A DNA stretch of 64,000 bases, taken from Thermoanaerobaculum sp. (GTDB lineage: Bacteria > Acidobacteriota > Thermoanaerobaculia > Multivoradales > UBA5704). The DNA is taken from assembly GCA_021154885.1 (NCBI GenBank), contig JAJKHS010000004.1:62001-126000 (forward strand). The letters are read 5' to 3'. The position numbers were made by a program, and so were the translations under genes. The notes under the pieces are model-generated. The model ran no database searches, had not been told where the DNA came from, and saw only the letters and a list, made by a program, of their open reading frames with translations. Of this stretch, positions 2,306 to 13,994 are shown piece by piece (the stretch's first letter is position 1; each line of letters starts with the position of its first letter).

Positions 2306-2686
2306 ATGCCCAGAACGAAGCTCTTCCTCCTGTCCCTGACCCTCTGCGTTGCCGCGCTGCTGGTGGCCGGCCTGGCCGTGGCCGCGGAGACCTCCCCGGC
2401 CCCGGGGCTCAAGAAGGTCGAGGCCAAGAAGGTCTGCATGGTCAACAATCAGGCCTCGGACAAGGACATGATCCCCGTCCAGGTGGGCGACAAGACCTAC
2501 TACGGCTGCTGTGCGATGTGCAAGGAGCGCCTCACCAAGGACCCGGCCTCGCGCTCCGCCGTCGATCCGGTGACCGGCAAATCGGTGGACAAGGCCACGG
2601 CAATCATCGCCGCCCAGCCCGACGGCAAAGTGCTCTACTTCGAGAGCGAGAAGACGCTCACCCAGTACCGGCAGAAGAAGAAGTAG
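2306..2686 (+). CDS. Exported small Cys-metal-binding protein (TRASH/YHS-like)
   Basis: A 126-residue product with a clear signal peptide (about residues 1-27, ending LAVAAE) and a gaggag ribosome site 9 nt before the ATG. The mature part holds KKVCMVNN, then YYGCCAMCKERL about 25 residues later. This Cys/Cys-Cys-x-x-Cys layout is that of TRASH/YHS-type metal-binding modules found in copper and heavy-metal trafficking and in NosL-like proteins. It is convergent with the thioredoxin gene, with only 4 bases between stops. Which metal it binds cannot be told from the sequence. Confidence 0.7.
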   Translation: MPRTKLFLLSLTLCVAALLVAGLAVAAETSPAPGLKKVEAKKVCMVNNQASDKDMIPVQVGDKTYYGCCAMCKERLTKDPASRSAVDPVTGKSVDKATAIIAAQPDGKVLYFESEKTLTQYRQKKK

Positions 2687-2690
2687 CGCC

Positions 2691-3143
2691 TCAGGCCGCC
2701 ACGCCGAGGGCTTGGCGGACGAACCCCTCGATGGCCGCGGCCGGGCGGGCGCCCATCTCCCGGGCCACCTCCCGGCCGCCCTGGAAGAGGGCCATGGTGG
2801 GGATGGACTGGATGCGGTGCGCCTGGCCCACGGCCGGGTCGACGTCGGTGTTGACCTTGACCACCAGGATGCGGCCGGCGTTGCGCTCCGCCACCTTGGC
2901 GATCTCCGGCGCCACCATGCGGCAGGGGCCGCACCAGGGGGCCCAGAAGTCCACGAGCACGGGCAGGCTCGACTCGCGCAGCACGCCAGCGAGCTCGCTG
3001 CCCTGGTCCACGGCCACGGGCTCGGACGGGGGCGGCAACGGCGTGCCGCAGGAGCCGCACTTGGCGGTCGCCTCCAGGCGGGAGAAGCGAAGCCGGTTCT
3101 TCTTCCCGCACGAGGGGCAGGTGCGAATGATTCCTTCACTCAT
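2691..3143 (-). CDS. trxC: Thioredoxin with N-terminal zinc ribbon (Trx2/TrxC type)
   Basis: A 150-residue protein. Residues 1-40 carry two Cys pairs (CPSCGKKNRLRF and CGSCG) forming a zinc ribbon. Residues 45-150 are a thioredoxin fold with active site WAPWCGPCRMV and the cis-Pro loop SIPTMALF. The ATG at 3143 was chosen because the zinc ribbon begins directly after it; an upstream in-frame extension is unlike the family. It is the last gene of the mau-like cluster, 114 nt after the Cys-rich Tat protein. It has no signal peptide, so it is probably a cytoplasmic reductant. Confidence 0.93.
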   Translation of the reverse strand: MSEGIIRTCPSCGKKNRLRFSRLEATAKCGSCGTPLPPPSEPVAVDQGSELAGVLRESSLPVLVDFWAPWCGPCRMVAPEIAKVAERNAGRILVVKVNTDVDPAVGQAHRIQSIPTMALFQGGREVAREMGARPAAAIEGFVRQALGVAA

Positions 3144-3257
3144 CGGGAAATTCCCTCCTTCCAACTCAACGGCAACAACAGGGGGAGAGCAGAGGGGATT
3201 CCGGGTCGGCGCCACCCCGCGGCACGCCCGCCCCGGGGTGGCACCGGCCCGGCGGGC

Positions 3258-3626
3258 TCAGCAGAGGGCCTGCGTGCGTATCGCCTGCGAGCAGACGACG
3301 CCGGTGCAGGACCCGTTGCAGGCCGCCGAGGAGCTGTAGCACTCCTTGCAGTTGTAGTAGCGGTCGTGGTCGCCCGCGAAGCAACACCCCCAGGTCCAGC
3401 AGCAGGCGCCGGAGCAGCCCGTCGAGCTCTTGCAGAGGGTGCAGCAGGCGATCGACACCAGCGCTTCCGCCTTCTGGGGCAGTCCCACGAGGGCCGCCGC
3501 CAGTCCCATGGCGCCCAGGGTCAGCTTGCGGATGAAGCTGCGCCGCCCGAGCCTCTCGGCGACGGAGAGCACCGTCGTCTCCTCCGGCGCTTCTTTTTCG
3601 TCAAACTCGTCGTGTTCGCTCATCAA
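3258..3626 (-). CDS. Tat-exported miniprotein with 14 cysteines, MauA-like position
   Basis: A 122-residue product. Residues 1-25 are acidic; then comes a twin-arginine leader (LGRRSFIRKLTLGAMGLAAA) like that of methylamine dehydrogenase light chain. After it come about 65 residues containing 14 Cys, including paired CC motifs and a CCWTWGCC core. MauA has 12 structural Cys and two Trp about 50 residues apart that form the TTQ cofactor. Here the two Trp are only two residues apart and the domain is shorter, so a canonical TTQ subunit is unlikely. It sits between a MauD-like gene (9 nt upstream) and a thioredoxin gene. Export in a folded, disulfide-rich state is inferred; its activity is unknown. 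Confidence 0.75.
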   Translation of the reverse strand: MMSEHDEFDEKEAPEETTVLSVAERLGRRSFIRKLTLGAMGLAAALVGLPQKAEALVSIACCTLCKSSTGCSGACCWTWGCCFAGDHDRYYNCKECYSSSAACNGSCTGVVCSQAIRTQALC

Positions 3627-3635
3627 ACCTCCTTT

Positions 3636-4166
3636 CTAGTCAATCGGACGTTCAGGCCGTCCGTACATTGAGACGCGCGCCTCCTCGTCGAGCATCACGG
3701 CGCCCGGCGTGGAGGAGACCATGAACCGGTGGCGGATCTCTCCTCTCTCGTCGAGGAGGACGGGGACGTCGGGCCCGGCCTGCCCCGCCAGGGCCGAGCA
3801 CGCCTCCGCGTCGCCGTCGCAGAGGACGTAGAGGCGGCCCTCGCTCTTGCTCTTGAGACCCAGGAAGGTGTCGAGCAGCCACTCGGGCAGCCCCTGCCCG
3901 GGAGGCTCCGGGGTGAGGAACAGCAAGGCCGCCGGCGCGCCGCGCAGGTCGTCGGTGCGCACCACGCCGCCGCGGGTGAGGTCGCGGGCCGCGAGCTCCA
4001 CCCGGGTGCCGCCGGCCAGGCGCTCCTCCTTGATCTCGGCCGGAGTGCTCTCGTCGATCTCGCGCTTGAGGCGGACCGTCCGCCGCAGCACCTCGAGGAG
4101 CACTGTGGTCTGGACCGCCACCAGGACCCAGAGCATCGCGTAGCTGCCATAGAAGATCGGTTGCAT
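3636..4166 (-). CDS. MauD-like membrane-anchored thioredoxin-fold protein lacking the CXXC motif
   Basis: A 176-residue product with an N-terminal membrane anchor (about residues 8-26) followed by a thioredoxin-like domain. Its layout matches the second MauD-like gene of the cluster: anchor, polar linker, LFL strand, then VLLDERGEI and SSTPGAVMLDEEARV. Where the paralogue has SPGCRLCW, this one reads TPEPPGQG, so both redox cysteines are missing. It may be a chaperone or holdase partner rather than an oxidoreductase. The start at 4166 lies 7 nt after the preceding stop, consistent with tight translational coupling. Confidence 0.75.
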   Translation of the reverse strand: MQPIFYGSYAMLWVLVAVQTTVLLEVLRRTVRLKREIDESTPAEIKEERLAGGTRVELAARDLTRGGVVRTDDLRGAPAALLFLTPEPPGQGLPEWLLDTFLGLKSKSEGRLYVLCDGDAEACSALAGQAGPDVPVLLDERGEIRHRFMVSSTPGAVMLDEEARVSMYGRPERPID

Positions 4167-4173
4167 GGCGTCG

Positions 4174-4788
4174 TCATCCTCTCCCTGCCGTCAGCCAGAC
4201 GGCGAGGACCGTGGCCGTCGCGACGAGGCCGAGCCCCTGGAAGCGGGCGTAGACCGAGGTGCGGCCCTCCCAGATCCGCATCAGATCGCCGGCCTCGTTG
4301 GGGTCCCGATAGGCCAGAGGGGCCACCCAGACCGGAAGCGTCTTGCCCAGCCAGTGGCCGCCCACCAGCAGGGCGCCATAGGCGGGGTCGCCGAGCCCGA
4401 AGGCGAGCAGGACGAGCAGCCAGAAGCCGCCATAGTTGACGCGGGTGAAGAAGCCGAGGCTCAGGTGCAGGCCCCAGAGGGTCGCGGCCCCCAGGGGGCC
4501 GAACTGGTGCATCCAGATTTTTTCCGTCTGCAGGGGCCTCTCCGGGAGGCGGAAACGCACCAGTCCCCACTCCCGCGCCGCGAGCACCAGGGCGAGCACG
4601 ACCCCGGTCAGCAGCACTCCGTCGTGGGCCGGAGCCACGCCTGCGAGTCGACCGAGCCAGCCGAGCGCCGCGCCGACTCCGGCGCCTACCCCAAGGCCGC
4701 TCAGCGTGTAAAGCAGGACCGCCGAGAACCAGGTTTTCCAGTCGCGTGCCACCTTCCCGAGGGGCGTCAGCGCTCCGACGAGCGACAC
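4174..4788 (-). CDS. Polytopic membrane protein of the mau-like cluster (function unknown)
   Basis: A 204-residue product with about five to six hydrophobic helices (residues ~18-45, 57-72, 98-125, 127-152, 183-200). Conserved-looking small-residue and aromatic stretches include QFGPLGAATLWGLHLSLGFF and GGHWLGKTLP. The position is where mauF occurs in classical mau loci, but I cannot recognise a CcdA/MauF signature. The GTG start at 4788 is 3 nt after the stop of the 56-residue peptide gene. A membrane partner for electron or substrate transfer to the exported Cys-rich protein is a guess from context. Confidence 0.65.
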   Translation of the reverse strand: MSLVGALTPLGKVARDWKTWFSAVLLYTLSGLGVGAGVGAALGWLGRLAGVAPAHDGVLLTGVVLALVLAAREWGLVRFRLPERPLQTEKIWMHQFGPLGAATLWGLHLSLGFFTRVNYGGFWLLVLLAFGLGDPAYGALLVGGHWLGKTLPVWVAPLAYRDPNEAGDLMRIWEGRTSVYARFQGLGLVATATVLAVWLTAGRG

Positions 4789-4791
4789 CCC

Positions 4792-4962
4792 TCAGACGCT
4801 GCTCAGGTGGCACCACCCCATGAGGCCGGCCAGCGGCAGCAGAGCGAGGGGGACGTCGATCCATGCCGCGGCGAGCGCTGCCGCGAGGCCGGTGCCGGCC
4901 ACCACCCAGGTCGCCAGCTCGAAGCCATCGGGGCGGGAAAGGCTCTCGGCGATCGTCTTCAT
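4792..4962 (-). CDS. 56-residue small membrane protein of the mau-like cluster
   Basis: A short gene beginning at an ATG at 4962 with a strong aaggaggag ribosome site 7 nt upstream. The peptide starts MKTIAESLSRPDGFELATWV and then continues as two hydrophobic segments (about 17-35 and 37-52), ending MGWCHLSSV. It lies 25 nt after mauD and 3 nt before the next gene on the same strand, so it is almost certainly part of the operon. No family is recognised. Confidence 0.7.
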   Translation of the reverse strand: MKTIAESLSRPDGFELATWVVAGTGLAAALAAAWIDVPLALLPLAGLMGWCHLSSV

Positions 4963-4987
4963 CGAGATCTCCTCCTTGGATTCGGTC

Positions 4988-5569
4988 TCAGGCGCGGGCG
5001 GGCGCCCGCTCCTCCTCAGGGATCACGGACTCCCGGGCCTGCCGGATCAGCTCCGCGAGCTCGCCGGCGTGTCGCGGGCTGCCAGAGGCGCGGACCCGGC
5101 CCTCCGGGTCCAGGACGAAGGCCACCGGCGTGCTGCGGACGCCGTAGCGCGCGCTCATCGCGCCGGACGGGTCGAGAAGGACCGGAACGTCGCCGGCCAG
5201 GGTCTCGACGAACGCGGCGCACTCGCCGGCGCTGCCGTGGCAGACGGCGATGCGGGAGAGGGATGGCTCCGCCGGCAGCTTGCGGGTGCCGTCGGCCAGC
5301 CGCCAGCAGAGCCTGCAGCCGGGGGACAGGAAGAGCACCACCAGCTCCCGCCCGCTGAGCAGCGAGGTATCGAACGTCGTCCCGGTGCGCAGGTCGGAGC
5401 CGCGGAGGCTGGCAGCCTGGGCCCCCAGCGGCAGCCGTTGCGGCAGACGGCCGTCCTCGGCGAGACGCCGGATCTCCGCCAGCTCGCGCAGCAGCCCGAT
5501 GATGATCAGGGTCTGGAACAGAACCAGGGCCCAGAGGGCGAAGTACGTGGGGAGGAAGCTGAAGCTCAT
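4988..5569 (-). CDS. mauD: MauD-type membrane-anchored thiol-disulfide protein
   Basis: A 193-residue product: N-terminal helix (about residues 8-25), linker, then a TlpA/MauD-like thioredoxin fold with the redox motif SPGCRLCW and the cis-Pro region YGVRSTPVAFVLD. MauD is required for stable, correctly disulfide-bonded MauA in methylotrophs, and acts at the periplasmic face. The start at 5569 was chosen because the membrane helix follows it directly and it lies 11 nt after mauE. Upstream in-frame sequence lies inside mauE and is not used. It pairs with the CXXC-less paralogue three genes downstream. Confidence 0.85.
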   Translation of the reverse strand: MSFSFLPTYFALWALVLFQTLIIIGLLRELAEIRRLAEDGRLPQRLPLGAQAASLRGSDLRTGTTFDTSLLSGRELVVLFLSPGCRLCWRLADGTRKLPAEPSLSRIAVCHGSAGECAAFVETLAGDVPVLLDPSGAMSARYGVRSTPVAFVLDPEGRVRASGSPRHAGELAELIRQARESVIPEEERAPARA

Positions 5570-5580
5570 GGCATCGAACC

Positions 5581-6177
5581 TCAGGAGACCGGCCGTGGTG
5601 CCGGCGCCTCCGAGCAGGTCTTGCAGCGATGGCGATGGAAGAGCTGGACCACCTCGTCGGCCCGCAGCAGCCAGAGACCGGCCAGCAGGCTGAAGATCGC
5701 CCAGAGGACCGCCAGGGCCAGGTCGCCGAGGCTGGCCACCCGCTGCGGATACACCAGGCGGTGAGTCAGGGGGGCCGCTCCCCCCAGCAGGAACAGCTCC
5801 GCCCCGAGGAGGAGCACGAGTTGGACGACGGAGCGCGCCGACACGCGCTCGCCGCCCAGGCTGTCGAAACAGTGACAGAGCAGGTCGCGATTGCGCCGCA
5901 GGTTGACGGCCACGGCCGTGGTGAACGCCAGGAGGACGGCGATGCCGAAGGGCACGGCAAGGCCCAGGCCCCAGCCGGTCAGGTGAGCGGCGGCGAGGAA
6001 GGCTTCGACGGGAATCAGAAGAGCGCCGAAGGCGTAGGCCAGAGGGACCGGCAGGACCTCGTATTCGGCCACCCCGCGCAGGAAGGCGGCCGGGTGGCGC
6101 AGCTTGCCGAGAGCGGAGAGAAGGAAGACGAGACCCAGGGCGAGCTGGGCGACGAGCCGGGCGCTCTCCACGCTCAT
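5581..6177 (-). CDS. mauE: MauE/DoxX-family membrane protein
   Basis: A 198-residue polytopic protein with about four to five helices. The first (ARLVAQLALGLVFLLSALGK) and the motif RRNRDLLCHCFDSLGGE are characteristic of the MauE/DoxX family, the latter supplying a CxC pair. In methylamine-dehydrogenase loci MauE works with MauD in maturation of the Cys-rich light chain. The C-terminal tail carries another Cys pair (CKTCSE). The ATG at 6177 overlaps the stop of the upstream gene (ATGA), which fixes the start. Confidence 0.88.
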   Translation of the reverse strand: MSVESARLVAQLALGLVFLLSALGKLRHPAAFLRGVAEYEVLPVPLAYAFGALLIPVEAFLAAAHLTGWGLGLAVPFGIAVLLAFTTAVAVNLRRNRDLLCHCFDSLGGERVSARSVVQLVLLLGAELFLLGGAAPLTHRLVYPQRVASLGDLALAVLWAIFSLLAGLWLLRADEVVQLFHRHRCKTCSEAPAPRPVS

Positions 6178-6665
6178 CGCGTCTCCACCTCTTGAAGCGC
6201 CGCTTCCGCGCCGCCGGCGACAAGCGAGGTGATCAGCGAGCGCAGGTCCACCCCTTCCCAGTTGAGATTGTTGCTGGCCGCCGTCAGCTTCCACTGGGTG
6301 GAGCAGATCTCGGGCCGCTGGAGATCCTTGCGGAAGGTGGCGCGGAAGGCGTGCCGGGCCGCCCGTACGTGGGACTCGATGAACGTCCCGAACTCCAGGA
6401 TGGCGCCTTCGTCAGCCCACAGGGAGAAGGAGTAGCAGGTGCGCGGCCCCTCGACGAGAAAGCCGGCATGCAGCAGGCCCCGGATGCTGCGCGCGTCGCG
6501 CCGGACGCGCCGGAAGACGCGATAGAAGCGGAGGAGGTCCCAGACCGAGCGGACGTGGAAGCGGGTGAGGACACAGGTGACTTGGCTTTCCACCCTCTCG
6601 AAGCCGGCGGCGCTGACCGGAGCGTCAGCCGACCATTTGAAACGAGATCCCACTCCCGGTTCCAC
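6174..6665 (-). CDS. Monooxygenase-like alpha/beta-barrel protein, first gene of the mau-like cluster
   Basis: A 163-residue product from a GTG at 6665 with ggaggt 9 nt upstream. The pattern VTCVLTRFHVRSVWDLLRFY ... LLHAGFLVEGPRTCYSFSLW ... HVRAARHAF resembles the dimeric ferredoxin-like fold of antibiotic-biosynthesis-monooxygenase and spheroidene-monooxygenase-like proteins. These families include cofactor-free oxygenases and heme-binding proteins. Catalytic residues cannot be assigned. It overlaps mauE by four bases and heads the cluster, so it may modify the exported protein or sense its state; that role is inference. Confidence 0.6.
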   Translation of the reverse strand: MEPGVGSRFKWSADAPVSAAGFERVESQVTCVLTRFHVRSVWDLLRFYRVFRRVRRDARSIRGLLHAGFLVEGPRTCYSFSLWADEGAILEFGTFIESHVRAARHAFRATFRKDLQRPEICSTQWKLTAASNNLNWEGVDLRSLITSLVAGGAEAALQEVETR

Positions 6666-6829
6666 GGAGAGAGCACCTCCGAAGAGAGCGATACGCCCCT
6701 GCTACGCAAGCGATGGTACGCTCCAAGCCCGAGGAATTCAAGCTTTTTTCAAGTGCGATTCTTGACGGAGTGAGCGGGCGCCTCCGAGAGCCCACCCATG
6801 ATAGGTTGGTCTTCCTTCCTGGAGGACTC

Positions 6830-7633
6830 ATGAAGAGATACCGCGTGAAGCCGGACAGCAAAGTCGATCTCGGGAAGATCGATCCCGGGTCGACCAAAGG
6901 CTTCAAGGGTGGCAAGGAGGATGCGGAGCAGCTCTTCCATCCTCTCAACCAGCGGCTGCTGGCGATCCAGGAGTCCCTGTGGGCCGAGCACAAGCGCAAG
7001 GTGCTCGTCGTCCTCCAGGGCATGGACACCAGCGGCAAGGACGGCACCATCAGCCACGTCTTCCAGGGCGTCAACCCCCTGGGCGTGCGCGCTCTGGCCT
7101 TCAAGGCTCCCAGCCCCGAGGAGCTGAGCCACGATTTCCTCTGGCGGATTCACGCCAAAGTGCCCGGCGCCGGCGAGATGGTGATCTTCAACCGCAGCCA
7201 CTACGAGGACGTCCTCCCCGTAAGGGTGCTCGAGCTCGCCCCGCCCGAGATCTGGCGCCCCCGCTTCGACCAGATCAACGACTTCGAGCGCCTGCTCGCC
7301 GAGACCGGCACCACCGTCCTCAAGTTCTTCCTCCACATCTCCAAGGACGAGCAGAAGAAGCGTCTTCAGGATCGCCTCGACGACCCCGCCAAGCGGTGGA
7401 AGTTTCGCACGGGTGACCTGAAGGACCGCGCCCACTGGGACGACTACATGGAGGCCTACGAGGACCTCCTTCAACGCACCAGCCAGAAGCACGCGCCCTG
7501 GTACGTCGTGCCCGCCAACAAGAAATGGTTCCGCAACCTGCTGGTGGCCACGGTCCTGGTCGAGACGCTGGAGAGCCTGGGGATCGAGCGTCCCGAGCCC
7601 GAGGAGGACCTGAAGGGGATCGAAATCGAGTAG
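6830..7633 (+). CDS. ppk2: Polyphosphate kinase 2 family: polyphosphate-nucleotide phosphotransferase
   Basis: A 267-residue single-domain PPK2. Walker A is QGMDTSGKDGT (about residues 64-74), the Walker B-like region is IFNRSHYEDVL, and the lid region includes DRLDDPAKRWKF. Enzymes of this class use polyphosphate to phosphorylate AMP/ADP or GDP in the cytoplasm. The ATG at 6830 follows ggagga by 4 nt; the family N-terminus (KRYRVKPDSKVDL) begins there. It is transcribed divergently from the mau-like cluster and convergently with mtnB. Confidence 0.93.
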   Translation: MKRYRVKPDSKVDLGKIDPGSTKGFKGGKEDAEQLFHPLNQRLLAIQESLWAEHKRKVLVVLQGMDTSGKDGTISHVFQGVNPLGVRALAFKAPSPEELSHDFLWRIHAKVPGAGEMVIFNRSHYEDVLPVRVLELAPPEIWRPRFDQINDFERLLAETGTTVLKFFLHISKDEQKKRLQDRLDDPAKRWKFRTGDLKDRAHWDDYMEAYEDLLQRTSQKHAPWYVVPANKKWFRNLLVATVLVETLESLGIERPEPEEDLKGIEIE

Positions 7634-7640
7634 TCGGTCC

Positions 7641-8270
7641 TCAGGCGTCCAGCCCCGCCCGGCGCGCCGCGGCGATGTAGCCGAAGACGTACTCGAAGAG
7701 CTCGACGTGATGAAGGGCCGCCTCGGCATCCCGGCCCCAGGTGGTAAGGCCGTGGTCGCGGATGAGGAAACCGGGGACGCGCGGCGGAGCCGCCGTGAAA
7801 CGGGCGAGGAGCTCCTGGGCGATGCGCGGCACGTGGAGGTGGTTGGGGAAGACGGCGAGCGAGATGTCCGGGTCCTGGTCCCAGACGCCCAGGCCCTTGA
7901 GCATCTCGAGCGGCGGCAGGCGCAGGTCATCCCCTGTGGTCAGGCGGGCGGCGACGTTGCCCGGAATCGAGTGGACGTGGAAGCAGGCCCCGGCCTGGGG
8001 AAACTGTCGATAGACGGCGTCATGCAGGCTGGTCTCGGCCGACGGCCGGTCGTCCGCCCGCCCGCGCTCCACCACCTCGCCGCCGGGGGCGATGCGCAGG
8101 AAGTCGGCAGCGGTGAGCCGGCCCTTCGCCTTGCCGCTGGCGGTGATCCAGAAGGTGCCGTCGGCCAGGAGCAGCGAGAGGTTGCCCGCCGTGCCCCACA
8201 TCCAGCCGCGGTCGTAGAACAGCCGGGCGGCGGCGGCCAATACGTCGCGGGGATCACCGGGATCGGCCAT
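7641..8270 (-). CDS. mtnB: Methylthioribulose-1-phosphate dehydratase
   Basis: A 209-residue class II aldolase-fold protein. Zinc ligands are visible in FHVHSIPGN and in FLIRDHGLTTWG, with the active-site Glu in the PLEMLKGLG region. MtnB dehydrates methylthioribulose-1-phosphate in the methionine salvage pathway. It lies divergent from mtnD with a 77-bp gap. mtnC follows mtnD, so three consecutive salvage steps are encoded here; mtnA and mtnP are not in the window. Confidence 0.9.
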   Translation of the reverse strand: MADPGDPRDVLAAAARLFYDRGWMWGTAGNLSLLLADGTFWITASGKAKGRLTAADFLRIAPGGEVVERGRADDRPSAETSLHDAVYRQFPQAGACFHVHSIPGNVAARLTTGDDLRLPPLEMLKGLGVWDQDPDISLAVFPNHLHVPRIAQELLARFTAAPPRVPGFLIRDHGLTTWGRDAEAALHHVELFEYVFGYIAAARRAGLDA

Positions 8271-8347
8271 GGCGCAAGAGACTCTAGCATGTCACCTTTC
8301 TGCTAAGATGAAGATAGAGCGCGCCGCGAGCGCAAGGAGGTACGGGC

Positions 8348-8911
8348 ATGGCAACTCTGACGTTCCCCCAGGAAGGGCGGGTGGTGGAAGATCCCCAGGA
8401 GATCTCCCGCTTCCTCGCCGGAGTCGGCATCTGGTACGGCAAGTTCGCAGGGACGGACTCGCTGCCCGAGGACGCGGGCGACCAGGAGATCCTGGACGCC
8501 TACCAGGGCCCCATCCAGCAACTGATGCGTGAGGGCGGTTACGTGACGGCGGACGTGATCAACGTCAAGTCCACGACCCCTGGCGTGGAGGCGATGCTCG
8601 CCCGGTTCAACAAGGAGCACTGGCACGACGAGGACGAGGTCCGCTTCATCGTCGATGGCCGCGGCCTGTTCCACATCCATCCCACGGAGGGACCGACGTT
8701 CAGCCTGGAGGTGGTCAAGGGCGACATGATCCGCGTGCCGCGCGGCACCCACCACTGGTTCGACCTCTGCGCGGACAAGACCATCCGGGCGATCCGCCTC
8801 TTCCAGGACAAGTCGGGCTGGACGCCTCACTACACGGAGTCCGGCGAGGACACGAAGTTCCAGCCCCTCTGCTTCGGGCCGTCCTACATCCCCTTCCAGC
8901 GGACGCTGTAA
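8348..8911 (+). CDS. mtnD: Acireductone dioxygenase
   Basis: A 187-residue cupin. The metal site is seen as HWHDEDEVRF (two His and Glu) plus GTHHWFDL. Acireductone dioxygenase oxidises acireductone to the 2-keto acid precursor of methionine (Fe form) or takes the off-pathway route (Ni form); the sequence does not show which metal. An aaggagg site precedes the ATG. The stop lies 4 nt before the mtnC start, so the two are co-transcribed. Confidence 0.95.
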   Translation: MATLTFPQEGRVVEDPQEISRFLAGVGIWYGKFAGTDSLPEDAGDQEILDAYQGPIQQLMREGGYVTADVINVKSTTPGVEAMLARFNKEHWHDEDEVRFIVDGRGLFHIHPTEGPTFSLEVVKGDMIRVPRGTHHWFDLCADKTIRAIRLFQDKSGWTPHYTESGEDTKFQPLCFGPSYIPFQRTL

Positions 8912-8915
8912 GAGG

Positions 8916-9626
8916 GTGGCTCCGCCTGGGCCGTCCGAGACGATCGGGGCCGTCCTGACCGACGTCGAAGGCACGACGACCTCGATCTCATTCGTCTACG
9001 ACGTCCTCTTCCCCTACGCCGCCGCCCGGCTGGACCGCTACTGCTCGCAGCCCGATCCGGGACCTGAGCTGGCGGCGGCGCTCTCCCAACTGCGCCGGGA
9101 GCATGACGAGGAGACCGCGAAGGGGATGGCCCTGCCTCCTTTCGGCGCCGACTACGCGCGCCGCCTGATGGCCGAAGACCGGAAATCGACCGGCCTCAAG
9201 CTCCTCCAAGGGTTGATCTGGGAGGAGGGGTACCTGAGCGGCGCACTGCAAGGGCACGTCTTTCCCGACGTGCCGGAGGCGCTCGCAGCCTGGCGCGTCG
9301 CGGGATTGCGCCTGCGGGTCTTCTCCTCCGGCAGCGTGCGAGCCCAGCAGCTCCTCTTCGGCCACACGGGCTACGGTGACCTGACCCCTCTCTTCGAGGG
9401 CTACCACGACACCACGACAGGCCCCAAGCGGGAGGCGGCCTCCTACGCCGCCATCGCCGCGGCGTACGGCCTGGCCCCCGGGGAGATCCTCTACCTGAGC
9501 GACGTGCGCGAAGAGCTGGACGCCGCCGCCGCGGCCGGCTTGCGCACCGGCCTGCTGGTGCGCCCGGGGAACCAGCCGTCGGAGCCGGGGGGGCATGCGG
9601 TGTATGGGGATTTCAGCGTGATATAA
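8916..9626 (+). CDS. mtnC: Enolase-phosphatase E1 (methionine salvage)
   Basis: A 236-residue HAD-family enzyme. Motif I is TDVEGTTTSISFVYD, motif II includes FSSGSVRAQQLLFG, and the C-terminal acidic motif is LYLSDVREELDAA. It converts the diketo phosphate intermediate to acireductone, the substrate of the neighbouring MtnD. The GTG at 8916 was chosen because the catalytic Asp comes within the usual distance and mtnD ends just upstream. The TIR-CHAT gene starts only 6 nt after its stop. Confidence 0.93.
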   Translation: MAPPGPSETIGAVLTDVEGTTTSISFVYDVLFPYAAARLDRYCSQPDPGPELAAALSQLRREHDEETAKGMALPPFGADYARRLMAEDRKSTGLKLLQGLIWEEGYLSGALQGHVFPDVPEALAAWRVAGLRLRVFSSGSVRAQQLLFGHTGYGDLTPLFEGYHDTTTGPKREAASYAAIAAAYGLAPGEILYLSDVREELDAAAAAGLRTGLLVRPGNQPSEPGGHAVYGDFSVI

Positions 9627-9632
9627 GACAAC

Positions 9633-12600
9633 GTGCTCTTCATCTCTCACGCCTCCGCCGATGACGCCTTCGTCACCGAGTTGCGCCGGGCTTTGGAGGC
9701 GCTCAACCTCACCGTCTGGGTGGACTACCGCAACTTGCGAGGGGGCAGCAAGCTGGCGCCGGAGATCGCGGCGGCCATCGAGCAGGCGCGGCGGTTCCTG
9801 GTCGTGCTCAGCCCGAGCACGGTCAATTCGCCGTGGGTGCGCCGCGAGATCCAAAAGGCTCTCGCCGTCGAGCAGAGCCGCAAGGCAGAGGGTTACCGCG
9901 TCATTCCCCTGCTTTTGCCTGGCATCACACCCGGGGCGCTGGGAACCTGGTTCGAGGAAGAGCCGGTCGCCGTGCCCATCGAGGTCGGTCCCACCGGCTT
10001 GAGCGCTGCCATGCCCGCCCTCCTTGCCGCTTTGGGGGAGCGGCTGTCCACCGATCCATCCTCGGTCAAGCAGCCCAGCTCCAGACCCATCGAAGAGCTG
10101 ATCCTCGCGCTTGCCGACCCCAAGATCGAAACCCACGAGGGGAAGCGCCGGGCCACGGCCACCGCCACGCTCATTTACGAGCCGGCCCAATCCGGTGCGC
10201 GACGGGTCGAGAGCCGGCGCTTTGCGTTCACCGCGCCGCTCGGTCCCATCGAGACCGCCGATCTGCGTTGGTATCTGGAAACCTATTCCATCTGGCCGGA
10301 CAAGCTGGCGCAGGAACGCGCCGAGGGGATCGCGAACAGGCTGCCGCGGTGGGGTCAGGAGCTTTACCAGGCCGCGCTGAGCGCAGAATCCGCCGATGAG
10401 GCCCTGAACGCTTGGAAGAACGCAGCCGCGAACGTTGCTGACCGGCGCTTCTCCGTGCAGGTGGACCGCGAGCTTCCCGAGGGCTCCGCCAAAGAAACCC
10501 AAGCCGCTGCGGGCGAGGCCGCCACCGAGCTGCTGGCGTTGCCGTGGGAGCTCCTCCACGACGGCTACTCCTGGCTGTTCCAGGGAAAGCACGCCGTGCG
10601 CGTAACGCGGCGCCTGCCCAACCGGCGTCCCCAGCCCGCTTGGTCCACCTCGTTGCCCGTACGCATCCTGCTCGTCAGCGCGCGGCCGGAGAAGGACAAA
10701 GGGAAGCGTATCGGCTACATCGATCACCGGGTCAGCGCCCGGCCGTTAATTGAGGCGGTTGAGAATCTGGGCTCCCTCGCCCGTCTCTCCCTTCTCCAGC
10801 CGCCTACCTACGCCGCGCTGAAAAAGGCTCTAGAAGCTGGCGATGAAGGTCAACCGTTCGACGTCGTCCACTTCGACGGCCACGGCGTGTATGACCCGCA
10901 GATCGGCCTCGGCGGGCTGTGCTTCGAAGATCCGAACGATGAAGCCAAGCTGGAGGAGCGGAGGCTGGATTTCGTGGACGCCGCCCGGCTCGCCGGCCTG
11001 GTCCGGGAGCATCGTATCCCGCTGGTGTTCCTCGAAGCCTGCCAGACCGCAGTGGCCGAGGTGGACCCCACCGCCTCGGTCGCTGGGCGGCTGCTCGAAG
11101 AGGGCGTCACCTCCGTGGTCGCCATGAGCTACAGCGTGCTGGTGGAGACGGCCCGGCGTTTCGTGCAGGCGTTCTACAGCGAGCTGGCCACGGGCGCGCG
11201 GGTAGGCCGGGCGATGCTTGCCGGCCAGCAGGCGCTGTTCGCCGACACCTGGCGGGGAAAGGACTTTGGCGCCGGCGAGCTGCGGCTTCAGGACTGGTTC
11301 GTGCCGGTGCTCTATCAGGAAGAGCAGGACCCGCAGCTCATCACCAGGATTTCGCCGCAGGAGGTCCAACAGCTCGAGGCGAAGAAACGCCGGTTGAGCC
11401 TCGGCGACCTGCCCGCGCCGCCGCCGCATAGCTTTCAGGGGCGAAGCCGCGAGCTGCTGGCGCTGGAGCGCCTGCTGCATCGCGAGCGGTGGGCGGTGGT
11501 GCGCGGCACCGGCGGTCAGGGCAAGACCACTCTGGCCATCGAGCTGGCCCGCTGGCTCACCCGTACCGGACGCTTCGCCCGGGCGGCCTTCGTGAATCTG
11601 GAGCACCATCGGGACGCCCGCGCGGTGCTGGACACCCTGGGCCATCAGCTCCTGCCCGACGGTGACAAGACGTTCTCCGTCGCCCAGTTCCGCGACTTCG
11701 ACGAGGCGGTCCAGCACGTCGAGCGCGCTCTGCACGATCAGCCCAGCATCCTGGTGCTCGACAACTGCGAGAGCGTGCTGCCCGAGCGGGGAGAGCCGGC
11801 CGCGCCAGGCTCCGAAGACGCCGCCTCGGCGATCTTCGCCCTCTGCCAGCGCCTCCTGGACGCCGCCCCGCGCACCCGCCTGGTCTTCACCACCCGCGAG
11901 CCTTTGCCGCCGCCGTTCGCTGCCGGCAAGTGCGAGCGGGAGCTGGGCGCTTTGGATCGAAACGACGCCATCGAGCTGGTCAGCGAGGTGATGAAGCAGA
12001 ACGGCTGGACGCCTCCTGACGATACGGGCAGCACGCCGCAGGAGATCACCGACTTGGTGGACGCGGTGAACCGTCACGCCCGCGCCCTGGTGCTCCTGGC
12101 GCGCGAGGTGGCCCGCCACGGAGTCCAAGGAACCACTGGGGACCTGAGGTCCCTGATGGCCGGCCTGGAGAAGAAGCACCCTGGCGACCGCGAGAACTCG
12201 CTCTACGCCAGCGTCGCTCTCTCTCTGCGCCGGCTCTCCGCGGACTCGCGCGTGCACGTCCGGGTTCTGGCGGTCTGCCAGGGCGGCGTATACCTCGGGG
12301 CCCTTGCGATGCTTACGGGTCTGGAGCCGGACGCCGCCCGCCCGTTGGCAATCGAGCTGATCGAAGTCAGCTTGGGGGAAGACATGGGCTACGGCCACCT
12401 GCGCCTGGACCCCGGCCTGTCCCCTTACCTGTTGGGCGAGCTGGCTGCCGGCGAAGCGGATGCCCTCCGCTCTCGCTGGGCCGAGGCGATGGCCCAACTG
12501 ACGGGGTATCTCTACGACGAATGGTTTAAAAACGCCCGCCTCGCCGCGCAACTGACGCTGCTGGAGCTCCCCAACCTCCTCGCCATGCTGGACTGGCTCC

Positions 12601-13994
12601 AGGCCCGCTGGCCGCCGGAGGAAGTAGTGGGCCTGGCGGGTCGCGTAGAAGGATTGGTGACCAACCTGGGCCGGCCGCAGGCCCTGGCGCGGGCCACCCG
12701 GGTGCGCGAACAGGCCGCGCAGAAGCTGGGCGACTGGAGCCACGCCCACTACCAATCAGAAGATGCAAACATCGACCGCCTGCTGGAACGCGGCGACCTC
12801 CCCACCGCGCACGCCACCGGCCAACAGCTCCTCGCGAAATGCCTTGCCGCTGGCGAGGCGGCTTACCCTGAGGCGCCCTACGACATCGCAATGGCGCATT
12901 TCAAAATCGGCCGGGTGCTAAAAAGGGGGGGCGCGGCCGAAGATGCCCTGGCGCCGTTGGCGGAAGCGCAGCGCCGGTTTCAGAAGCTGGCCGATGCGGG
13001 CGATACCAGAGCCCAGCGCATGGCTGCTGTCGCCATCACGGAGACCGGCGATTGCCTGAGCGATCTCGGGCGCTTGGATGAGGCTGCGGAGGCGTATGAG
13101 GAGGGCATCGACCTCGACCAGCAAGAGAATCGATTGAGAGATGTAGCCGCCGGCAAATTCCAGCTCGGCACCGTGCGGCTCTTACAGAAACGCTATGAGG
13201 AGGCGCTGGAGATCTACGCGGATGCCCGCGACGCCTTCGATTCTCTGGGCGAGCCACGTATGGTCGCCACGGCCTTGCATCAGATCGGTAGGGTTCATGA
13301 AGACGCCGGTCAGTTCGAGCCCGCCGAGCGGGCCTACCGCCAATCCCTGAGGATCAAGGTGCGGGAGAACGACCTTGCCGGCCAGGCCGCCACCCTGAAC
13401 CAACTGGGCAACCTCTACGACAGGATGGACAGGCTTGAGGAGGCAGCGGCGTTTTCCAGGCAAGCGGCTGATGCCTATGTACGGCTCGCGAATCTCGCAA
13501 ATGAAGGAAAGGTACGAAACAACCTGGCCTACACACTGATCAAGCTCCACCGCTACGACGAAGCCCGGCAGGAGCTCCAGCGGGCGATTGAGTGCAAGAG
13601 GCCTTATGGCCACGCCGCGACACCCTGGAACGCCTGGTCATTTCTGGAAGACCTCGAACGCGCCACCGGCCACGCCGAAGCCGCACAGGCCGCCCGGCAG
13701 CAGGCGATCGAGACCTATCTGGCCTACCGCCGGGCTGGGGGGTTCAGCCAGAGCAACCAGGCCCAGCTCTTCGCTCAGGTAGCCCAAGCGATCCAGCAGA
13801 GCGCCGTGTTGGAGATGCAGAAGCGGTTGAACGCTCTGCTAGAGCCCGACGATCCGCCGACCTTCATTGCGCTCATCCGGCAACTCCAAGCCATTCTCGC
13901 CGGCGACCGCGATCCCGCCCTTGCCGCCGATCCTGAGTTGTACTACAGGGACGCTGCCGAGCTGCAGCTCCTGCTCGAAGCTCTCTCGCCCTGA
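9633..13994 (+). CDS. TIR-CHAT-STAND NTPase-TPR protein (predicted immune/cell-death effector)
   Basis: A 1453-residue multidomain protein. Residues 1-135 form a TIR domain that begins LFISHASADDAFV and contains SPWVRRE: W68 and E72 fit the WxxxE motif of NAD-cleaving bacterial TIRs. Residues ~290-560 form a CHAT caspase-like protease, with HFDGHG (His417) and FLEACQTA (Cys470) as the likely dyad. Residues ~600-900 are a STAND/NB-ARC-type NTPase (Walker A GTGGQGKTT, K631; Walker B ILVLDNCES). The rest is helical TPR sensor sequence (~1050-1350). The GTG start gives an intact TIR and lies 6 nt after mtnC, without a convincing ribosome site. The pairing of an NADase-type and a protease-type effector on one STAND chassis is unusual. 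Defence is inferred from domain families. Confidence 0.85.
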   Translation: MLFISHASADDAFVTELRRALEALNLTVWVDYRNLRGGSKLAPEIAAAIEQARRFLVVLSPSTVNSPWVRREIQKALAVEQSRKAEGYRVIPLLLPGITPGALGTWFEEEPVAVPIEVGPTGLSAAMPALLAALGERLSTDPSSVKQPSSRPIEELILALADPKIETHEGKRRATATATLIYEPAQSGARRVESRRFAFTAPLGPIETADLRWYLETYSIWPDKLAQERAEGIANRLPRWGQELYQAALSAESADEALNAWKNAAANVADRRFSVQVDRELPEGSAKETQAAAGEAATELLALPWELLHDGYSWLFQGKHAVRVTRRLPNRRPQPAWSTSLPVRILLVSARPEKDKGKRIGYIDHRVSARPLIEAVENLGSLARLSLLQPPTYAALKKALEAGDEGQPFDVVHFDGHGVYDPQIGLGGLCFEDPNDEAKLEERRLDFVDAARLAGLVREHRIPLVFLEACQTAVAEVDPTASVAGRLLEEGVTSVVAMSYSVLVETARRFVQAFYSELATGARVGRAMLAGQQALFADTWRGKDFGAGELRLQDWFVPVLYQEEQDPQLITRISPQEVQQLEAKKRRLSLGDLPAPPPHSFQGRSRELLALERLLHRERWAVVRGTGGQGKTTLAIELARWLTRTGRFARAAFVNLEHHRDARAVLDTLGHQLLPDGDKTFSVAQFRDFDEAVQHVERALHDQPSILVLDNCESVLPERGEPAAPGSEDAASAIFALCQRLLDAAPRTRLVFTTREPLPPPFAAGKCERELGALDRNDAIELVSEVMKQNGWTPPDDTGSTPQEITDLVDAVNRHARALVLLAREVARHGVQGTTGDLRSLMAGLEKKHPGDRENSLYASVALSLRRLSADSRVHVRVLAVCQGGVYLGALAMLTGLEPDAARPLAIELIEVSLGEDMGYGHLRLDPGLSPYLLGELAAGEADALRSRWAEAMAQLTGYLYDEWFKNARLAAQLTLLELPNLLAMLDWLQARWPPEEVVGLAGRVEGLVTNLGRPQALARATRVREQAAQKLGDWSHAHYQSEDANIDRLLERGDLPTAHATGQQLLAKCLAAGEAAYPEAPYDIAMAHFKIGRVLKRGGAAEDALAPLAEAQRRFQKLADAGDTRAQRMAAVAITETGDCLSDLGRLDEAAEAYEEGIDLDQQENRLRDVAAGKFQLGTVRLLQKRYEEALEIYADARDAFDSLGEPRMVATALHQIGRVHEDAGQFEPAERAYRQSLRIKVRENDLAGQAATLNQLGNLYDRMDRLEEAAAFSRQAADAYVRLANLANEGKVRNNLAYTLIKLHRYDEARQELQRAIECKRPYGHAATPWNAWSFLEDLERATGHAEAAQAARQQAIETYLAYRRAGGFSQSNQAQLFAQVAQAIQQSAVLEMQKRLNALLEPDDPPTFIALIRQLQAILAGDRDPALAADPELYYRDAAELQLLLEALSP

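Follow-up and report, generated by a model that had tools for sequence, protein, structure and literature searches.

MauE and MauD are known for assisting a single enzyme, and the question raised by the locus described here is what such proteins might serve in a genome in which neither chain of that enzyme, methylamine dehydrogenase, could be detected. The locus lies on the minus strand of a 64,000-nucleotide (nt) stretch of Thermoanaerobaculum sp. DNA (assembly GCA_021154885.1, contig JAJKHS010000004.1, positions 62,001 to 126,000), referred to below as the window, and all coordinates are positions in that window. Our analysis indicated that it is probably a seven-gene cassette, acquired at this site or lost from sister genomes, which encodes a miniprotein exported by the twin-arginine translocation (Tat) system, with 14 Cys in a 67-residue mature part, together with a dedicated membrane redox module that would form or sort the disulfides of this miniprotein outside the cytoplasm. 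Support for this reading comes from the protein families, the Tat leader, the 21% Cys content, the tight packing of the genes, their joint absence from sister genomes, the lack of detectable MauA and MauB, and the recurrence of comparable gene sets on plasmids.

Eight consecutive minus-strand open reading frames (ORFs) were called between 2691 and 6665, with junctions of -4, 11, 25, 3, 7, 12 and 114 nt. The preliminary description had treated all eight as one cluster; the ORFs and their packing, including the 114 nt before the thioredoxin gene, were recovered as it gave them, but the thioredoxin gene is a flank gene, and the unit consists of the seven genes at 3258-6665. The features of the locus, beginning with the first cassette gene, are the following.

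6174-6665, minus strand: 163-amino-acid (aa) protein without a family or a hydrophobic segment; GTG start, 4-nt overlap with mauE
5581-6177, minus strand: MauE-like membrane protein, 198 aa (PF07291)
4988-5569, minus strand: MauD1, a MauD-like membrane-anchored thioredoxin-fold protein, 193 aa (PF00578, weak TIGR02661)
4792-4962, minus strand: hydrophobic 56-aa peptide with a single Cys near its end (no Pfam or NCBIfam family)
4174-4788, minus strand: Cys-free multi-pass membrane protein, 204 aa (no family in Pfam, NCBIfam or PHROG scans)
3636-4166, minus strand: MauD2, a MauD-like paralogue without CXXC, 176 aa (similarity to MauD1)
3258-3623, minus strand: precursor of the 14-Cys miniprotein, 121 aa (TIGR01409 Tat signal)
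3462-3623, minus strand: Tat leader, R27R28SFIRK by Tat motif match, with cleavage predicted from the sequence after AEA
3261-3461, minus strand: predicted mature part of 67 residues, with all 14 Cys, W76 and W78
3201-3252, minus strand: long GC-rich hairpin behind the miniprotein gene, possibly the end of the transcription unit (inverted arms, RNA fold)
3218-6826, no strand: DNA that is extra in comparison with same-genus genomes, boundaries approximate (DNA homology to L117/L114)
2691-3143, minus strand: flanking gene for a thioredoxin with a Zn ribbon (CGPC; PF00085, PF21352)
6830-7633, plus strand: flanking gene for polyphosphate kinase 2 (PPK2; PF03976)

The GC content of third codon positions was 0.84-0.93 in the seven cassette genes, compared with 0.82-0.95 in neighbouring genes, and, because of this likeness and of the 21% Cys in the mature part of the miniprotein, the seven genes are taken to be true coding sequence. 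No sigma-70 promoter was found in a scan of 2600-6900, and the window had no Rfam match at gathering scores. The arms of the hairpin (3201-3223 and 3230-3252) are 23 nt each and 87% complementary, and the RNA fold had a z-score of -2.8, with 2 of 200 shuffles equally stable. A terminator scan that requires a T run did not flag the hairpin, and the end of transcription is therefore placed there only tentatively.

Comparison with related genomes indicated how the set came to be delimited. In both same-genus genomes, G002 (L114) and G001 (L117, a contig that ends inside PPK2), an orthologue of the thioredoxin gene (74-75% identical) adjoins PPK2 with no cassette between them, and it is for this reason that the thioredoxin was assigned to the flank. 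The DNA homology to these two loci spans 2694-3217 of the window and starts again at 6827. The seven genes are thus jointly missing from an otherwise syntenic spot in both genomes, and approximately 3.6 kb appears either to have been inserted here or to have been lost from both sisters. The GC content of the cassette (0.703) is within the range of the window, 18 of 303 sliding windows being equally high, and composition therefore gives no sign of foreign origin. PPK2 orthologues were present in G001, G002 and G003, the last of which belongs to the same family (L115) and has no thioredoxin at the site, where a desaturase, a small exported protein and PPK2 adjoin. The thioredoxin-PPK2 gap of G002, which is the spot of the cassette, contains a gene for a HicA toxin (L114:4205-4417; PF07927, 44.2 bits). 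On the other side of the thioredoxin gene, the plus-strand ORF at 2306-2686 encodes a small protein that begins like an exported one and matches the TRASH domain below cut-off; a similar sequence was found beside PPK2 in G003, and none in the G001 and G002 contigs examined.

Two of the seven proteins could be placed in families by Pfam. The MauE-like protein matched PF07291 (71.6 bits, cut-off 27), and it has the Cys motif C101-H-C103 between hydrophobic segments and an additional C-terminal C185KTC188. MauD1 matched PF00578 (35.3 bits, cut-off 26), with the motif C85RLC88 and a second Cys pair, C110/C117; its score against the MauD equivalog TIGR02661 was 23.8 bits compared with a cut-off of 188.6, and MauD2 had no match to that model. 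MauD1 is therefore called MauD-like only, and its thioredoxin fold is based on PF00578. None of the other five proteins (the 163-aa, 56-aa and 204-aa proteins, MauD2 and the 14-Cys protein) had a Pfam match over cut-off. MauD2 was nevertheless related to MauD1 (32% identity, phmmer E 7.2e-21), in agreement with its first description as a CXXC-less MauD paralogue, and the membrane peptide of 56 residues was likewise present as described. MauD2 retains the second Cys pair as C116/C123, and, since this pair is common to both paralogues, MauD2 need not be redox-inert. The assignment of the 163-aa protein as monooxygenase-like could not be upheld: no Pfam or NCBIfam family matched it at E ≤ 1, its Protein Data Bank (PDB) matches were at chance level only (E 0.18), and one weak match was to a PHROG that has no assigned function (E 0.043). 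In its single-sequence AlphaFold model, which is of low confidence (pLDDT, predicted local distance difference test, of 41), the elements follow the order b-a-b-b-a, considered here with regard to the ferredoxin-like fold of antibiotic-biosynthesis-type monooxygenases.

The last gene of the cassette is preceded by AAAGGAGG, a strong ribosome-binding sequence ahead of its ATG. Its product has a Tat signal, RRSFIRK (TIGR01409 18.2 bits, cut-off 16.7), and no other family over cut-off in Pfam, NCBIfam or PHROG. The predicted mature part has 14 Cys among 67 residues, including three CC pairs, and the motif CCWTWGCC, which contains its only Trp, W76 and W78, two residues apart and thus close together, as had been reported. 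The preliminary description had also called the leader MauA-like; the Tat motif and the dense Cys were confirmed, but likeness to the MauA leader beyond the Tat motif was not demonstrated.

Could the miniprotein nevertheless be a degenerate, shortened MauA, and the gene set a remnant or variant of a methylamine or aralkylamine dehydrogenase, with a cofactor on W76/W78 resembling tryptophan tryptophylquinone (TTQ) or cysteine tryptophylquinone (CTQ) and an unrecognised heavy chain elsewhere? The mau cluster of methylamine dehydrogenase, for example that at L094 in the same phylum, likewise has MauE and MauD families by a small Cys-dense protein with a twin-arginine leader, which is a MauA-type feature that the miniprotein has; the layout of the leader is similar, and the 14-Cys protein can be threaded along MauA and the MauA-like proteins of Thermomicrobium (W-x3-C, and VVCS...C at the C terminus). 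However, the 14-Cys protein had no PF02975 match at E ≤ 1. Against a profile of seven MauA/AauA sequences, the check proposed in the preliminary description, the mature part scored 6.8 bits, which 845 of 1000 composition shuffles equalled, and 885 of 1000 shuffles did as well against a Thermomicrobium profile, whereas the controls, three MauA-like proteins of Thermomicrobium roseum, scored 50.2-58.5 bits against the MauA profile with none of 1000 shuffles doing so. A repeat agreed, in which three profiles and 2000 shuffles, of two kinds, were used. The controls are approximately 110 aa and the query is 67 aa, so that a very remote relation to MauA might still exist. The idea of a compact MauA, first suggested by eye beside the Thermomicrobium proteins, was dropped after these profile and shuffle tests with positive controls, and by sequence the miniprotein is not a homologue of MauA.

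The rest of the dehydrogenase was not detected either. MauA (PF02975) and the heavy chain MauB (PF06433) were both undetected in the window genome, the assembly of which is 96.6% complete, the preliminary description having noted no heavy chain in the cluster, while PF02975 exceeded cut-off in 7 of 297 phylum genomes and PF06433, in the same search, was recovered from G069 (2e-90), where the gene order is mauE-mauD-mauA, and from G051 (3.5e-25). No MauG was found among the cassette genes by family scans, a genome-wide search for it not having been made. TTQ in MauA forms from two Trp distant in sequence, Trp57 and Trp108 in Paracoccus denitrificans, and the mature miniprotein offers only W76 and W78, just two residues apart. 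The cassette also differs from a mau cluster in having two MauD-like paralogues, one without CXXC, and three extra proteins without a family. A degenerate MauA is thus very unlikely. Even more improbable is that MauE, MauD and the 163-aa protein would build a new protein-derived cofactor, such as a cross-link between W76/W78 and Cys in CCWTWGCC, on a stand-alone redox miniprotein without a heavy chain; the motif is the sole support for this idea, and no evidence was found for the new redox cofactor that had been suggested for the locus.

The Thermomicrobium roseum plasmid that provided the controls (NC_011961; L103:5751-13417) is of separate interest. It encodes three short MauA-like proteins, two of which were tested and matched PF02975 (25.1 and 32.9 bits), with Trp at or beside both light-chain Trp positions. 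Two of the three genes are directly behind, and one is ahead of, genes for proteins of approximately 400-430 aa, one of which was tested and scored 25.2 bits against PQQ_2, just below the cut-off of 27.6. The arrangement is a repeated light chain and propeller-like protein, with no annotated mau cluster within the 14 kb viewed.

The cassette is best read as a portable module in which MauE and MauD form the disulfides of an exported, disulfide-dense miniprotein, which is perhaps an antagonist. The miniprotein precursor would be exported via Tat; MauD1, through CRLC, would exchange disulfides with it and pass the electrons to MauE (CHC, CKTC) and on to the membrane pool. MauD2, which has no CXXC and keeps the second Cys pair, might hold or position the substrate or isomerise its bonds, and the remaining three proteins (204 aa and 56 aa, both membrane proteins, and 163 aa) may be accessory, in immunity, transport or assembly. 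The scheme resembles the part that MauE and MauD play in the maturation of methylamine dehydrogenase, but with a substrate that is not MauA and with no heavy chain detected. It is from the families and motifs that we infer these redox roles, the disulfides and a secreted, possibly antagonistic product. The product may act as an antagonist, belong to the envelope or bind metal. The proposal of a mau-like maturation module for an exported Cys-rich protein other than MauA was supported by the PF07291 match of MauE, the MauD-like proteins, the Tat signal and the negative MauA profile test.

A tblastn search of 72,556 plasmids with the MauE of G069 matched 24 plasmid records, 19 of which were also in the list of MauA matches. 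The five without MauA were from two Priestia megaterium, one Exiguobacterium and two Streptomyces plasmids and are counted as three genera rather than as five independent cases. In all five, a small Cys-rich polypeptide accompanies MauE and a thioredoxin-fold protein, either as a neighbour or as part of a fusion, so that comparable sets do occur on plasmids of Bacillota and Actinomycetota. Both Priestia plasmids (L125 and L129) have an annotated 60-aa coding sequence with 6 Cys, a TlpA-like protein with CSSC, an ATP-binding cassette (ABC) transporter and MauE, which is followed in L129 by a MauD-like redoxin. In Exiguobacterium (L126), a redoxin, an ABC transporter, MauE and a MauD-like protein are beside a tandem pair of ORFs with 6 Cys each (58 and 55 aa; L126:1036-1476), which are missing from the incomplete PLSDB gene table. 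Like the cassette, these loci combine MauE with small Cys-rich peptides, here of 55-60 aa with 6 Cys, and with proteins of the thioredoxin fold, of which L126 and L129 have two each and L125 has one; unlike it, they include an ABC transporter, their peptides have no visible Tat leader, and by eye the peptides seem unrelated in sequence.

The two Streptomyces plasmids, for which the PLSDB gene table is nearly empty, have a single frame of 509 or 510 aa (L127:5001-6530 and L128:5001-6533) consisting of MauE, a thioredoxin-like domain, a twin-arginine-hydrophobic segment and a Cys-rich tail. The L127 fusion matched PF07291 with 86.4 bits and PF13098 with 26.3 bits, just under the cut-off of 27, and its tail of approximately 215 aa has 14 Cys; the fusion tail had no significant similarity to the MauA or Thermomicrobium profiles. 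The likeness to the cassette is one of architecture, and the differences are that the parts form one polypeptide and that the tail is larger. The fusion ties the MauE, thioredoxin-like and Cys-rich functions together directly.

Several results weigh against a dedicated disulfide-forming cassette. The MauE of the cassette itself had no plasmid match at E ≤ 0.001, the plasmid survey having been made with the MauE of G069. Priestia L125 has a Tn3 transposase at the position of the redoxin in L129. Of 200 shuffles made for each locus, 14 for L125, 33 for L126 and 5 for L129 contained a small Cys-rich ORF by chance, and two generic TlpA plasmid loci each had one such ORF, and each single association is therefore weak; the plasmid case rests instead on the annotation in two diverged plasmids, the tandem duplication and the fusion. 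The single-sequence AlphaFold model of the mature miniprotein was poor (pLDDT 52), and the disulfide bonding of the miniprotein is a prediction. The 14-Cys protein was found in its own genome only (1 of 59 relatives) and, at E ≤ 0.01, in 9 of 396 phylum genomes including its own, the other eight matches (E 0.0015-0.008, five with internal stops) being at chance level; none was confirmed in the genome_contigs, plasmids or viral_contigs collections. Among the best 29 of the MauE-like loci, which occurred in 124 of 396 phylum genomes, only shadow ORFs and no Cys-rich partner were seen by eye, and five MauE-TlpA-TlpA fusions in the phylum had no Cys-rich neighbour. No sibling cassette was found, and co-inheritance of the seven genes can therefore only be presumed.

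The other cassette proteins gave a similar distribution. MauD2 matched 13 of 396 genomes at E ≤ 0.001 including its own (best other 1.8e-5), and the matches inspected were TlpA-type domains or chance frames. A profile of MauD1 and MauD2 matched 30 genomes, the window genome among them, of the 148 searched in the class (E ≤ 1e-5; best other 2.8e-9), and neither at the 29 other loci nor at the best 29 MauE-like phylum loci were relatives of other cassette proteins found within approximately 1.5 kb. A search for MauD-like siblings with just two seed patterns from the N-terminal region, which is a weak test, gave nothing convincing. The 163-aa protein was found in its own genome only (1 of 58), and the 204-aa protein in 5 of 237 phylum genomes at E ≤ 0.01 including its own, with E 0.003-0.008 for the other four, and in none of the 72,556 plasmids. 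Conservation beyond the window genome, on which the preliminary description had made its proposal depend, was consequently not observed, with no convincing sibling of the 14-Cys protein, MauD1/MauD2, or the 204-aa and 163-aa proteins in the sampled genomes, and the cassette is known from one genome.

Within the window genome, six matches to the MauE/DoxX family were each read with approximately 1.5 kb per side, and no locus outside the cassette had a similar neighbourhood. One of them (L005) has MauE with a thioredoxin-like protein alongside, and another (L003:1489-2188) has MauE, then a 107-aa ORF that includes an export-like segment and is rich in Cys at its end, and then a 361-aa ORF. A second match to the 14-Cys protein in the same genome (C159), considered as a paralogue, is a Cys-rich ORF with no mau neighbour visible in 3.2 kb and was taken as chance. 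Among the MauE-TlpA-TlpA fusions, those at L019, L021 and L025 (approximately 500 aa) are beside a gene resembling, by eye, tRNA-guanine transglycosylase, with no Cys-rich partner. At L015:1108-1719, a 203-aa protein, PqqD-like by eye only in its N-terminal part, ends in a twin-arginine-hydrophobic segment and a short Cys-rich tail.

With no sibling cluster showing co-inheritance, the association could be a coincidence of transferred DNA, in which MauE and MauD serve other envelope proteins and an unrelated small Cys-rich gene happens to be adjacent. The tight same-strand packing, the strong ribosome-binding sequence of the miniprotein gene, and the comparable pairing in three other genera, in one of them as a fusion, make this explanation quite improbable.

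A different view of the product, though not of its maturation, is that it is a bacteriocin-like secreted antagonist, with the 204-aa or the 56-aa membrane protein providing self-immunity. Such a role is a guess based on the distribution in a single genome and on the toxin gene, hicA, at the same spot in the sister genome G002; neighbours without a family and the ABC transporters that accompany the Priestia and Exiguobacterium analogues would fit it as well. On the other hand, no exporter is recognisable in the cassette apart from the Tat leader, no protease is encoded there, and no known bacteriocin family was matched in Pfam or NCBIfam. We regard this role as possible but doubtful.

Tat usually transports folded proteins, which would suit an exported metal binder of the metallothionein type, folded round its metal before Tat export, with MauE and MauD keeping its thiols reduced or regenerating them. 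The three CC pairs and the dense Cys are consistent with this, as is the weak score of the Streptomyces MauE fusion against a maturation model for copper-binding ribosomally synthesised and post-translationally modified peptides (RiPPs), 13 bits compared with a cut-off of 80. The cassette, however, has no metal transport or sensing gene recognisable by Pfam or NCBIfam, and the decRiPPter study links MauE to disulfide formation (PMC7794033), citing work on MauE and MauD of Paracoccus. A metal binder is accordingly unlikely.

The same study describes three candidate RiPP families of Streptomyces with mauE, one of them also with mauD, and with precursors that each have at least 8 Cys, and it argues that mauE and mauD modify the precursor because those genomes yielded no further mau orthologues (PMC7794033). 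Compared by description only, these clusters resemble the cassette in having mauE, with or without mauD, a Cys-rich precursor and no other mau orthologues. The cassette has the combination of mauE/mauD and a Cys-rich precursor by which the kind was proposed, with no MauA or MauB in its genome and MauG sought in the cassette only. No account of the present cassette was found in the literature searched, and the cassette is a variant of a kind already proposed but unproven in Streptomyces (PMC7794033).

Beyond PPK2, genes for a class II aldolase, an acireductone dioxygenase (ARD) and a HAD hydrolase are grouped at 7641-9626, which we take to be a likely methionine salvage group. They are followed on the plus strand, at 9633-13994, by a gene for a 1453-aa protein with TIR, CHAT, NTPase-like and TPR parts, which matched the Thoeris ThsB TIR model with 30.7 bits (cut-off 21.2) and possibly functions in defence or signalling.

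In conclusion, the cassette, together with the loci on plasmids, points to a portable kit for disulfide-dense exported miniproteins that would be used in four lineages (the window genome, Priestia, Exiguobacterium and Streptomyces), with substrates that seem unrelated and with the kit fused, in one lineage, to its likely substrate. If this is true, exported proteins that are small and rich in disulfides could be searched for by way of MauE without MauA, and the cassette would be a compact system in which to study how MauE and MauD act.

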